From the NCBI GenBank assembly GCA_025360395.1, contig JANYCH010000172.1:1-33292 (forward strand): 33,292 nucleotides of DNA, given 5' to 3'. Below the pieces are notes generated by a model. That model worked only from the letters and a program-made list of their open reading frames with translations, searched no databases and had not been told where the DNA came from. Origin of the DNA: Cytophagales bacterium (lineage in GTDB: Bacteria > Bacteroidota > Bacteroidia > Cytophagales > UBA9547). The translations under genes and the position numbers were made by a program. Positions 5,551 through 20,993 of this stretch are shown here, piece by piece (within the stretch, counting starts at the first letter, position 1; each line of letters opens with the position of its first letter).

Positions 5551-6144
5551 CTAATTATTTACCCTTACAGGGAAATCAACGAGAATATCCTGTTCACCAT
5601 CAGCAGGATTAGCAGTTTTTTCTATTCCATTACTGAAATGCCTTAGATTGATATTGAAAATGCTGTTTCCACCAGCGTTTCCGGATTTAATTTTGAATTC
5701 AAGGCCAAGCGGTTGGGCAGGGCTCCTCGTATCATAATCTGTGATAATAGTTTGTGCTATTAGGCTTCCTTTGATTGAATAATGGAACCGATGAAAATTT
5801 GCTTCCTTTCTAATCTCGTCTGAAACAACCGAAAGTGGAGTTTTTGTATCGTCATAAATTGACTGGCTGACAAAATAAGTTTTATTTACCTCTAATTTTA
5901 TGGTGTCCGCAACCGGAGGATTTTTCCCTTGTCCATCCGTGTCTCTGAGTGTAAAGGTTTTTGAAATGGTATTATTGGCTGAATCAATGAACTGCAACTG
6001 AATTCTCGTGATGTTTTCTTCGTCCCCCGCACCAGGGTTGACTGGTTGCTCTGCAGTTGGGTCAGTTGCCTTATTCTTTTTACAACCGGAAATAGAAATT
6101 GCCACAAATGCCAATAGGAAAATAATGTGTTTAGTTTGTTTCAT
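5551..6144 (-). CDS. Hypothetical lipoprotein co-directional with the TonB receptor
   Basis: 197 aa; lipobox-type signal (LLAFVAISISGC) followed by KKNKATDP; 24 bp downstream of the TonB receptor stop. Confidence 0.8.
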   Translation of the reverse strand: MKQTKHIIFLLAFVAISISGCKKNKATDPTAEQPVNPGAGDEENITRIQLQFIDSANNTISKTFTLRDTDGQGKNPPVADTIKLEVNKTYFVSQSIYDDTKTPLSVVSDEIRKEANFHRFHYSIKGSLIAQTIITDYDTRSPAQPLGLEFKIKSGNAGGNSIFNINLRHFSNGIEKTANPADGEQDILVDFPVRVNN

Positions 6145-6168: not shown

Positions 6169-8502
6169 TTAATTTTTATTGTAAATGCTGACAGGGACTT
6201 TTATTCTTAAAGTAAAATTCCGGCCCATCTCATCAGTAAAATACCTGAAACGGTTCATATAGTCCCGGTAGGCAACATCAAATAAATTATTCACCTGAAA
6301 AATTATACTTACTTTCTGTTTTCCAAAGAGGAGGTCGGTCCCTGCCTCTGCATCAAATAAGGTGTAGGCTGCTGGGGGATTAGCATAATCTGAATTTTCT
6401 GGTACCCTCCATTGATTTTCGGTACGGTTTAAGGTGAATCTCAAATAAGAGTTATAAGCTTCTTTTATAAATCGTGGCCGATAAACAATTGCAGGACTGT
6501 ACCTTATAGGCGGGATATTGATTAAGTACCCTTTTTCAGTAATATTTTCTGCTAAAACCAATGAACCTTTTACGATCAGGTTTATGGATTTGGACATTTC
6601 ATAACTGGCAAACAAATCGGAACCATAAAACCTGGCATCTATTTGGGTATAAGTAAAAGACGGAAATGCACCCCTTATTGTCTGTACCAATTCCAGGTCT
6701 GGTTTTAGATAAATAAAGTTCTGTATTTGACTGTAAAACAGGGAACTTTCCAAATTTAATTTCTCTGATTTAGCTTCCAGGCTTGTTACAAGTTTAAATG
6801 CCTGTTCAGGCTTTAAGGTAGGGTCCCCAATTTCAATTGCTGCGGCTCCGTGATGCAATCCTTTACTAAACAGCTCGTTTACATTGGGCGGACGCCAGGT
6901 AGTTCCTGCATTTGTTCTCCAGTTCAACGCTTTGCTTATTTTATAAATGGCCCCAACAGTTCCCGAAAAATTTGAAAAGCTATACGGCAATAGTTTTACT
7001 ATTCCATTATCGTTAAGGTATATATCCAGGAATTTTTTATCATATCGTAAACCGGCTTCCAGGTCTGTTTTTCCTAAACCCCATTTTTCAATAATAAAAC
7101 CTCCAAAAGACTGACTTTTAAAATTTGGTATAAGGAACCTTCCCTGCCAGATATTGGCTTGTTGCATATAAACTGTTCCGATACTTCCTGAAATATTTTT
7201 AAAAGGTTTATGTTCCAGGACCAGGTCAGCAGAATGGGTTGTCAATTTTAATTGAAGTTGTGGGATCTCTTTAGATTCATTGGCTATTGAATTTCTTAAA
7301 ACATCAAATTCTGATCTGTTGTTGAACTGTCGTCCCAAAAGCAAATTCAAACTCCCTATTTTAGCTAAGTAAGCAGAAAATTTTGCCCGCACCAACTCAT
7401 GTTCCACATGTTGAAAAGGACGGTTGATTTCATAACTAAAACCAGACTTGACAGCTGGTTCCGATTTTTCGATCGCATTTTGCAGGTCAGAGACACTTCC
7501 TATATGTGAACCTGAAAAAATCCCTAATGTGGTATTAAACTGACTATAAAATATTTCTCCTGAAAACCACTTTCTGTTATAACCTACAGCATAAGAAAAG
7601 TTTTTCTCCTCAAATCCGGTATTTGCCTGATAATAATGAGGCGCTTTAACATTCCCTGCTTTGCTCATTGTGCCTTGCAAACGCCACATTAATGGCAGCC
7701 ATTTTCCAAATTTCCCCTCAAGAAGTCCTGAAACAGTTCCTTGCCTGTTATTACTCATTCCTACCAAATTCATTTCACCATTGATGCCCGTTTTCAGTGG
7801 AAGGTTTCTTGGTTCTACAATGACAACACCCGCTATGGCATCTGATCCGTACCGGACCCCGGCAGCCCCCTTTACTACAGTCATTTTATCAGAAACAAAC
7901 GGATCTATTTCAGGTGCATGTTCGTTGCCCCATTGCTGACCTTCCTGTCGTAAACCGGCATTTAAAACTAAAACCCGATTACTGTGCAAACCATGAATGA
8001 CCGGTTTAGAAATAGAATTTCCTGTTTTTAAAGTAGTCACTCCGGGCAATTCTTTTAAAGCATCTCCCAGTGAAAGCCCGCGTGTCCTGTCAAGTTCCTT
8101 CCCTGTAAGTGAGGCCCTTGTGAATGATCCTATTTCTTCGGCCTTCTTTCCATAAACCGTTACAGACTCAAGCTGGCAGGTGTCAGTATGCAGAATAATC
8201 TGGTCTATCCTGATGTCGGAATTTAATTTGTAAGAGGTAGTAAAAGATTTATATCCAAGGGCAGAATACACTACTGTAACTTTCCCCTGACATAAATTAT
8301 TTATCTGAAAAAAACCGTTGGAGTCAGTAGAAGCACCTTTTTGAAATTCTTTAATAAAAACAGAGGCGTATTGAAATGGCTTCCCGGTTTCACCATCCAG
8401 AACATTTCCTTTTAATACAGCATTGCAAGAGTCCGGTTGTGCAAATAAAACTCCCGGAACTAATATTAAATTGAAAAGAAAAAATAAAAAACAGAATTTC
8501 AA
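6169..8502 (-). CDS. TonB-dependent receptor with N-terminal carboxypeptidase-like regulatory domain, possible metal uptake receptor
   Basis: 777 aa; signal peptide, CNAVLKGNVLDGETGKPFQYASVFIKEFQKGASTDSNGFFQI, plug domain (LPGVTTLKTGNSISKPVIHGLHSNRVLVLNAGLRQEGQQWGNEHAPEIDPFVSDKMTVVKGAAGVRYGSDAIAGVV), C-terminal beta-barrel ending NLFDVAYRDYMNRFRYFTDEMGRNFTLRIKV. TTG start codon. Confidence 0.93.
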   Translation of the reverse strand: MKFCFLFFLFNLILVPGVLFAQPDSCNAVLKGNVLDGETGKPFQYASVFIKEFQKGASTDSNGFFQINNLCQGKVTVVYSALGYKSFTTSYKLNSDIRIDQIILHTDTCQLESVTVYGKKAEEIGSFTRASLTGKELDRTRGLSLGDALKELPGVTTLKTGNSISKPVIHGLHSNRVLVLNAGLRQEGQQWGNEHAPEIDPFVSDKMTVVKGAAGVRYGSDAIAGVVIVEPRNLPLKTGINGEMNLVGMSNNRQGTVSGLLEGKFGKWLPLMWRLQGTMSKAGNVKAPHYYQANTGFEEKNFSYAVGYNRKWFSGEIFYSQFNTTLGIFSGSHIGSVSDLQNAIEKSEPAVKSGFSYEINRPFQHVEHELVRAKFSAYLAKIGSLNLLLGRQFNNRSEFDVLRNSIANESKEIPQLQLKLTTHSADLVLEHKPFKNISGSIGTVYMQQANIWQGRFLIPNFKSQSFGGFIIEKWGLGKTDLEAGLRYDKKFLDIYLNDNGIVKLLPYSFSNFSGTVGAIYKISKALNWRTNAGTTWRPPNVNELFSKGLHHGAAAIEIGDPTLKPEQAFKLVTSLEAKSEKLNLESSLFYSQIQNFIYLKPDLELVQTIRGAFPSFTYTQIDARFYGSDLFASYEMSKSINLIVKGSLVLAENITEKGYLINIPPIRYSPAIVYRPRFIKEAYNSYLRFTLNRTENQWRVPENSDYANPPAAYTLFDAEAGTDLLFGKQKVSIIFQVNNLFDVAYRDYMNRFRYFTDEMGRNFTLRIKVPVSIYNKN

Positions 8503-8521: not shown

Positions 8522-8552
8522 CAAAAGTAGTTTGAAGATTCTGTAAATGCAA
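8522..8552 (-). promoter_or_regulatory. Predicted Bacteroidota sigma-A promoter: TACTTTTG (-7, 8522..8529) and TTGC (-33, 8549..8552), 19-bp spacer
   Basis: Minus strand reads TTGC-N19-TACTTTTG, matching the TTTG-N17-23-TAnnTTTG type consensus, just upstream of the TonB receptor start. Confidence 0.6.
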
Positions 8553-8569
8553 CAATGTTGCATTTACAG
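8541..8569. promoter_or_regulatory. Perfect inverted repeat CTGTAAATGCAAC-AAT-GTTGCATTTACAG; candidate operator (Fur-family-like geometry)
   Basis: 13-bp perfect arms, 3-bp centre, overlapping the predicted -33 box of the TonB receptor; no T-tract. Confidence 0.7.
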
Positions 8570-8578
8570 CAACCACTC

Positions 8579-9052
8579 TCAAAAATTTAATAAGCTTAAT
8601 CCTTCTTTTGTAATAGCACAGTTAATCCATTCAGGATCAAAGGAAGGATCATATTTTTTATAAAACTTTATGGCAGGCTCATTCCAGTCCAGCACTTGCC
8701 AATGCAATTTGCCTGCACCTTCTTCCCTTGCAACCTTAATTGTTGCTTCCATTAATTTCCGGCCTATTCCTTTTCCTCTAAAAGCTTCATTTACAATAAT
8801 ATCGTCTATATAAATTGATTTTCCTTTCCAGGTTGAATAGCTGTAATAATAAACTGACATCCCACAAACTGTTCCGTTTACTTCGGCTAGCAAGGCGTAA
8901 AATGCAGGATGAGGCCCAAATCCTTCCAACCGCATTTGTTCTTCAGTATTTTTAACTTCTTCTGGTTGCTTTTCAAATTCAGCAAGTTCATGCACCAATT
9001 TCATCATGACTGGAACATCATTTTTTAAAGCCTTTCTTATTTCAATTTTCAT
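8579..9052 (-). CDS. GNAT N-acetyltransferase (diamine/spermidine acetyltransferase-like)
   Basis: IEIRKALKNDVPVMMKLVHELAEFEKQPEEV, YIDDIIVNEAFRGKGIGRKLMEAT, WQVLDWNEPAIKFYKKYDP; Met at 9052 overlaps the upstream stop (ATGA), so the called 9112 start is too long. Confidence 0.88.
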   Translation of the reverse strand: MKIEIRKALKNDVPVMMKLVHELAEFEKQPEEVKNTEEQMRLEGFGPHPAFYALLAEVNGTVCGMSVYYYSYSTWKGKSIYIDDIIVNEAFRGKGIGRKLMEATIKVAREEGAGKLHWQVLDWNEPAIKFYKKYDPSFDPEWINCAITKEGLSLLNF

Positions 9053-9774
9053 TTCGAAATACCTTTCTCTTTTAAATAGTCCTGAAGTGAATCTGGTGTT
9101 CCCAAATCCCACACGGCCTTAGCTTTAGAAATACCTACCAAATCTCCTTTGGCTATCATTTTCTGGTAAACCGGAATAACATAATATTCCCCTTTGGTAG
9201 TTTCTTTGTTTGCGATCATTTCATTTGAAAAATTGACAAACTCCTTCCCGTTCGAAAAATAGTACATACCGGTACTGGCGTGGGAAGAAATTCTTACCTT
9301 TTCAGCAACTTCTACTACTTTGCCATTTTTATCAACAGCAGCAAAACTCCACCTGTCGCCAGGCATATCTGCCACAGAAATCAATCCTTTGCAATCGCTT
9401 GCTTTATTTTGAATATCCTTCCCTATTTCAGATTTTACAATGGTGTCTGAGCCAATTATCAAAACATCCTCATTTTTATTGATATATTCAGTAGCGGAAA
9501 GTACAGTACATAACTGGCCTTGCGTTACTTCCTCTATCAAAACCAGTTTTGTCCTTTCAATTTTGTATTCTGTAAGGTAATTGGTTATCCCATAAAGTTC
9601 TTCATGTTCCTTTAATGCCACTATAACCAATTCAGAATATTCTATACCTTTTATGCTGGCAAGGCTAGTGATAAACATGGGAATTCCATTTACAAGTATG
9701 AGAGGTTTAGGTCTTTCATATCCATGCCCTTCAAACCGGGAACCCCGGCCTGCCATTGGTAAAACTATGATCAT
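9049..9774 (-). CDS. Nucleotidyltransferase (NTP_transferase family, sugar/phosphoalcohol nucleotidylyltransferase-like)
   Basis: MIIVLPMAGRGSRFEGHGYERPKPLILVNGIPMF signature; VLIIGSDTIV; stop overlaps the GNAT start. Confidence 0.85.
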   Translation of the reverse strand: MIIVLPMAGRGSRFEGHGYERPKPLILVNGIPMFITSLASIKGIEYSELVIVALKEHEELYGITNYLTEYKIERTKLVLIEEVTQGQLCTVLSATEYINKNEDVLIIGSDTIVKSEIGKDIQNKASDCKGLISVADMPGDRWSFAAVDKNGKVVEVAEKVRISSHASTGMYYFSNGKEFVNFSNEMIANKETTKGEYYVIPVYQKMIAKGDLVGISKAKAVWDLGTPDSLQDYLKEKGISK

Positions 9775-10133
9775 TTCGATTTTCCGAGTTGTTGCAGCGT
9801 ATTTTCAGAAATACTATGCCAGTCTGAATATCTCAGTGCCCTGTCATCGATGTACAAGTCGGCGTTGGGTTTTCCGAAGAATATTTCATCATATTGAATA
9901 TCATGTCTTTGAAGCCAGTCTAAAGTGATCAACCCGATGTTTTTCATGACTTTCCCTACATTGCTATTGCAGGTGGCCATGTTCCTGGCTGTTTGGATGA
10001 TGATGTGATGGCCATTCTTTTTCAGTTCCTTCAATTTCTCTACTGCACCTTCATGGGGCAAAAGATCAGCATAAAATTCCCCTTCCTGACGGATAGGGCA
10101 GATGGTTCCATCAAGGTCAATTACAATTCTCAT
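9771..10133 (-). CDS. HAD-family phosphatase (capsule biosynthesis phosphatase-like)
   Basis: MRIVIDLDGTICPIRQEGEFYADLLPHEGAVEKLKELKKNGHHIIIQTAR...KPNADLYIDDRA; internal Met chosen over the 10154 start; ATGA-type overlap with the next gene. Confidence 0.82.
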   Translation of the reverse strand: MRIVIDLDGTICPIRQEGEFYADLLPHEGAVEKLKELKKNGHHIIIQTARNMATCNSNVGKVMKNIGLITLDWLQRHDIQYDEIFFGKPNADLYIDDRALRYSDWHSISENTLQQLGKSK

Positions 10134-10261
10134 ATATCTAGGATGTTGTGGCACTAAATTTATCGTGTATATTCAATAGTTTTAATAACAAAGAATATTT
10201 ATTTTGCTGAAACAAAGGTTTTAATTTTTTAAAGACCCATTACAGCCTACGAATAACATGA

Positions 10262-20941: not shown

Positions 20942-20993
20942 AATATATTGTGAAGATTGAGCTTATATTTAAGCTCAATCTTCACAATATATT
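20942..20993. terminator. 24-bp perfect hairpin with TATT loop, likely bidirectional terminator of convergent genes
   Basis: AATATATTGTGAAGATTGAGCTTA-TATT-TAAGCTCAATCTTCACAATATATT fills the gap between the cellulase stop and the Lrp stop. Confidence 0.75.

Follow-up and report, generated by a model that had tools for sequence, protein, structure and literature searches.

In Neisseria, the outer-membrane receptor ZnuD imports zinc under the control of Zur, and in phyla other than the Bacteroidota, COG0523, FolE and HisI are all encoded by Zur-linked genes. COG0523 genes have been placed downstream of Zur boxes in such phyla (PMC2770081), and a Zur site, ATGCAACNNNGTTGCAT, was predicted by Rodionov and co-workers in 2004 for two Desulfovibrio genomes only (PMC545781, Table 5). 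Reviews of Zur (PMC6103462 and PMC8000910) do not mention the Bacteroidota, papers on Flavobacterium johnsoniae and Riemerella treat Zur as background only and give no operator, and no published description of a Bacteroidota Zur operator was found in the open-access literature, which is not proof of absence. The window, by which we mean the whole stretch of 33,292 nucleotides of Cytophagales DNA that was analysed, carries a palindrome that is very probably a Zur box, presumably bound in a zinc-dependent manner, on the promoter of a TonB receptor-lipoprotein operon. Comparative genomics strongly supports this prediction of a Zur operator at the receptor promoter.

The palindrome, CTGTAAATGCAACAATGTTGCATTTACAG, is exact and occupies positions 8541-8569 (window sequence and motif search), and as a predicted operator, drawn from the sequence, the repeat finder and the relatives, it is assigned to neither strand. 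An earlier sequence-only reading had described it as a perfect 13-3-13 inverted repeat; position and exactness stand, and arms and loop are better given as 14-1-14 because A8554-T8556 adds one inner pair per side in the repeat finder. Within it lies the conserved 15-bp core TGCAACANTGTTGCA, the Zur box proper (8548-8562, likewise strandless), taken from exact-core counts in genomes of the order, and the 17-base ATGCAACNNNGTTGCAT published as a Zur consensus (PMC545781) is matched exactly at 8547-8563. The window holds a single copy of the palindrome with up to three mismatches allowed, shuffled sequences leading one to expect none, and it is again the only copy at up to three mismatches over 27 bases in the 3.1 Mb genome (85% complete). 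When the window was simulated 60 times with a second-order Markov model, only one run contained a perfect palindrome with arms of at least 13 and a loop of 0-5; among plasmids the promoter was without any match. Elsewhere in the window, a perfect 24-bp hairpin with a 4-nt loop (20942-20993) lies between two convergent genes and resembles an ordinary bidirectional terminator.

The minus strand carries, in order, a HAD-type gene (9771-10154), a nucleotidyltransferase gene (9049-9774), the GNAT gene (8579-9112), the palindrome, the element TACTTTTG, the receptor gene (6169-8502) and, after a gap of 24 nt, the lipoprotein gene (5551-6144). The receptor starts with a TTG codon at 8502, so that the palindrome indeed lies 39-67 bp upstream, and the overlap with a Bacteroidota -33/-7 promoter is present as claimed: on the minus strand, a TTG at 8552-8550, inside an operator half-site, is followed by a 20-bp spacer and by the -7 element TACTTTTG at 8529-8522, which conforms to TAnnTTTG and sits 26 nt from the palindrome centre. 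Target promoters share this geometry, given that in 134 of them TAnnTTTG falls 20-45 nt from the palindrome centre 49 times (3 in shuffles) and begins 23-28 nt from it in 48 cases. The distances peak sharply at 25-26 nt, and a minor group lies at 15-19 nt. From this peak it follows that one half-site supplies the -33 TTG, so that a repressor bound there should exclude polymerase. The overlap of operator and -33 element, on which the proposal of a repressor placed to occlude RNA polymerase relies, holds for box sites in general, and repression would probably proceed through polymerase exclusion at -33.

The box also stays with the receptor. It precedes all six receptor orthologs of at least 37% identity (37-100%, the window's own included) with 0-1 mismatches; the five from other genomes of the family are 84, 59, 40, 38 and 37% identical, and in each the core lies directly upstream with at most one mismatch. 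Absence of the palindrome upstream of orthologous receptors, which had been named as one observation that would refute the operator, is consequently not what is found. A receptor paralog in the same genome (L230, 32% identity) is without the box. The exact 15-bp core is present in 6 of 10 family genomes, and of the 292 genomes of the order, 111 contain TGCAACANTGTTGCA exactly and only 2 the reversed pattern; an unrelated 14-base Rex-type palindrome, used as a frequency control, gave 8 hits in 395 genomes. A 19-base version of the motif marks at least 116 loci in a GTDB-based collection with one genome per species and, counted from titles, about 97 of these belong to Bacteroidota, 17 to other taxa and 2 are unassigned. 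Boxes outside the Bacteroidota (L096, L112, L157 and L165, from Rhodocyclaceae, Parvularcula, Dehalococcoidia and Betaproteobacteria) adjoin Fur-family, COG0523 or TonB receptor genes.

The genes behind the box point to zinc. For 170 collected sites, genes were called around each, the first gene per side was clustered and target families were identified by hmmscan with Pfam and NCBIfam on representatives. At 122 of these sites the gene behind the box belongs to some ten recurrent families, zinc-response genes dominating; the 48 sites with no recurrent target count against the Zur reading. Zinc-linked recurrent targets comprise zur itself, ZnuD-like receptors, COG0523/ZigA GTPases (ZigA-like, with ZigA as best hit), MerC, FolE, a metal-independent carbonic anhydrase and an AztD-like zinc chaperone, and genes for proteins related to the lipoprotein of the window (5551-6144) recur as well. 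The largest cluster, with 32 targets, joins Fur/Zur-family regulators and TonB receptors, which were merged through a joined reading frame; the others include lipoproteins of the window's type (27), MerC (25), COG0523 (21) and a TrxR-like oxidoreductase (17), with GTP cyclohydrolase I among the smaller sets and HisI behind the box at two loci. To our knowledge the recurrent TrxR-like oxidoreductase family has no established link to zinc, and this too counts against the Zur reading. In relatives, then, the motif stands before genes of zinc uptake and zinc sparing and before Zur-type genes, the latter as autoregulation would predict. Of the zinc genes that the sequence-only reading expected behind such boxes, COG0523 is found, and neither zinc ABC transporters nor paralogous ribosomal proteins appeared among recurrent targets; the central proposal of that reading, a Fur-family (Zur-like) operator at a TonB receptor promoter, is supported by boxes before orthologous receptors, COG0523, zur and other zinc-starvation genes.

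Some individual loci are of interest in their own right. At L147, L168 and L199, the gene behind the box encodes a homolog of metal-independent carbonic anhydrase, which suggests an enzyme swap that spares zinc. In Candidatus Symbiothrix dinenymphae (L142, 3045-5378, minus strand), a single 778-codon ORF behind the box encodes both a Zur-type regulator and a TonB receptor, either truly fused or merged by loss of a stop codon. Another box-adjacent zur (G001:C100, 2920-3255; L045/L047) has an in-frame TAG and is either a pseudogene or an assembly error; a further Zur-type gene (L044) is present in that genome.

The window's own genome has two Fur-family genes and, as had been supposed for the regulator, the candidate is encoded outside the window: it lies on contig C165 (460-879, minus strand) as a putative Zur gene, with the HxH motif and both CxxC motifs that are conserved in Zurs encoded next to boxes. 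Its best match among solved structures is M. tuberculosis FurB/Zur (1.3e-7), and it scores below every NCBIfam cut-off. No box lies upstream of this candidate, autoregulation thus not being seen in this genome; the genome has one good box only; and neither COG0523 nor MerC genes were detected in it (85% complete). All three points count against the Zur reading, and the own-genome regulon is unconfirmed because COG0523 and MerC were not found there. Weaker sites with up to two mismatches occur at 14 further places in this genome; many of them are inside ORFs, and none stands in front of a gene recognisably linked to zinc.

Could the operator answer to another metal? Under a different Fur-family regulator, such as Fur for iron or PerR, the receptor would import iron or heme, and it does score 156 bits against a heme/hemoglobin subfamily vs 112 against ZnuD (NCBIfam, both far below cut-off); a classical Fur/PerR-type protein is also encoded in nearly every family genome. 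The motif, however, does not resemble the Fur consensus GATAATGATNATCATTATC given in PMC545781, inspection finding nothing similar to it in the palindrome, and the Fur-family genes that adjoin boxes are of the HxH/CxxC Zur type. The targets, moreover, are zinc genes, for example COG0523/ZigA, FolE and metal-independent carbonic anhydrase. Control by Fur or PerR is on these grounds very unlikely, and the choice of Zur rather than Fur is supported. Transcription termination offers a reading of another kind, in which the palindrome ends transcription of the GNAT operon upstream of it as a Rho-independent terminator: it lies 9 nt past the GNAT stop codon and its RNA gives a strong fold (-29.9 kcal/mol, z -4.0). 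Yet the G+C-rich stem with a U-tract that such terminators display is not seen, no U-tract following either arm, and a terminator scan does not list the palindrome, while many copies of the box lie between divergent promoters. In G008 and other genomes the box is kept with the receptor and the upstream gene is a different one, and this variation argues against a terminator that belongs to GNAT. The earlier judgement that a terminator is the less likely reading, made for want of a T-tract, is reinforced by the scan and by the box following the receptor and not the upstream gene; we regard it as extremely improbable. The palindrome RNA may nonetheless form a hairpin in read-through transcripts.

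The arms themselves hold a further signal. Beyond the core, the bases are unconserved yet pair: over 116 distinct promoter sites, pairing at positions ±10 to 17 is 0.584, against 0.391 for permuted arms (sd 0.016, maximum 0.446) with slid registers at expectation, and since box sites are not phylogenetically independent, z-values overstate the significance of this excess, the compensated pairs being unaffected. Chance 7-1-7 palindromes from the same loci pair at 0.368 in intergenic DNA (terminators included) and 0.279 in coding DNA. Arms are up to 26 nt long. Between the window (8541-8569) and a sister species (L052/L163, 5030-5058) there are compensated changes at ±11 (T.A to C.G) and ±12 (G.C to A.T), and Aquimarina sites contribute several more compensatory arm changes. 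A dimer footprint does not account for pairing that extends this far into the flanks, and this counts against a plain Zur reading. A dual element, compatible with a Zur box, would have long arms that are structural as well, as a hairpin insulator in read-through RNA or as a cruciform, and it would accord with the pairing, the arm lengths and the compensatory changes. Against it, arm length is the same with divergent (12.1) and same-strand (12.3) upstream genes, the expected transcript start falls outside the arms, and a mutational cause, template switching, would yield an identical pattern. A dual element thus appears unlikely; selection for structure and perfection of the palindrome by template switching are both possible origins of the arm symmetry.

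With the palindrome taken as a Zur box, the products of the operon suggest what it might control. The receptor has plug and beta-barrel domains above Pfam cut-offs, the mark of TonB-dependent receptors; its top PDB hit is ZnuD (4RDR), in the plug region (2.9e-17), and it reaches 111.6 bits against the cut-off of 950 for the ZnuD family NF038289 of NCBIfam. The lipoprotein (197 aa) belongs to a recurrent box-controlled family in which, across 23 aligned members, Cys21 of the lipobox, Glu43, His118 and His169 are invariant. Its model (pLDDT 79) is mostly beta-strand, and a fold search gave weak beta-sandwich matches only, none at E up to 0.001, hence no confident structural relative. It may be hypothesized that this lipoprotein binds zinc. 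When zinc is sufficient, a zinc-loaded Zur dimer, or two, would sit on TGCAACANTGTTGCA, and occupancy of the half-site holding the -33 TTG would block RNA polymerase; as zinc drops, apo-Zur would dissociate, the operon for the ZnuD-like receptor and the surface lipoprotein would be transcribed, and the two proteins would carry zinc, free or in a complex, through the outer membrane. In this scheme we infer that zinc is the co-repressor, that the C165 protein binds directly and that the receptor transports zinc. It is possible, if doubtful, that the co-varying long arms, whether DNA or RNA structure or operator-seeded mutation, constitute a second layer of Zur control and that the two-histidine lipoproteins are a new surface family for zinc capture.

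More broadly, a single searchable motif reads out a zinc-starvation regulon over the Bacteroidota. It ties zinc to unannotated families, namely the two-histidine lipoprotein, a MerC-like family, the TrxR-like oxidoreductase and one family that Pfam does not match, and hints at a zinc-sparing role, under Zur, for a metal-independent carbonic anhydrase. FolE and HisI genes stand beside the boxes here as well as COG0523; the COG0523 survey (PMC2770081) names Firmicutes, Proteobacteria and Cyanobacteria, and its main text contains no word starting with 'Bacteroid'. Caulobacter crescentus also places TonB-dependent outer-membrane proteins under Zur, through a proteobacterial motif, GTTA-N5-TAAC, that is unlike the window's box (PMC4176598). 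Neisseria ZnuD (PDB 4RDR) is the top-ranked solved relative of the window's receptor, which differs in its extra CarboxypepD_reg_2 domain, its partner lipoprotein and a score below the ZnuD cut-off. The predicted Desulfovibrio box shares the 17-base consensus, the Fur-family zinc regulator and the zinc uptake genes downstream; there, however, it precedes znuABC-zur (PMC545781), whereas here it lies before a Bacteroidota TonB receptor-lipoprotein operon and overlaps a -33/-7 promoter. The predicted operator is thus one of a known kind, with a regulon across the Bacteroidota that seems newly traced.
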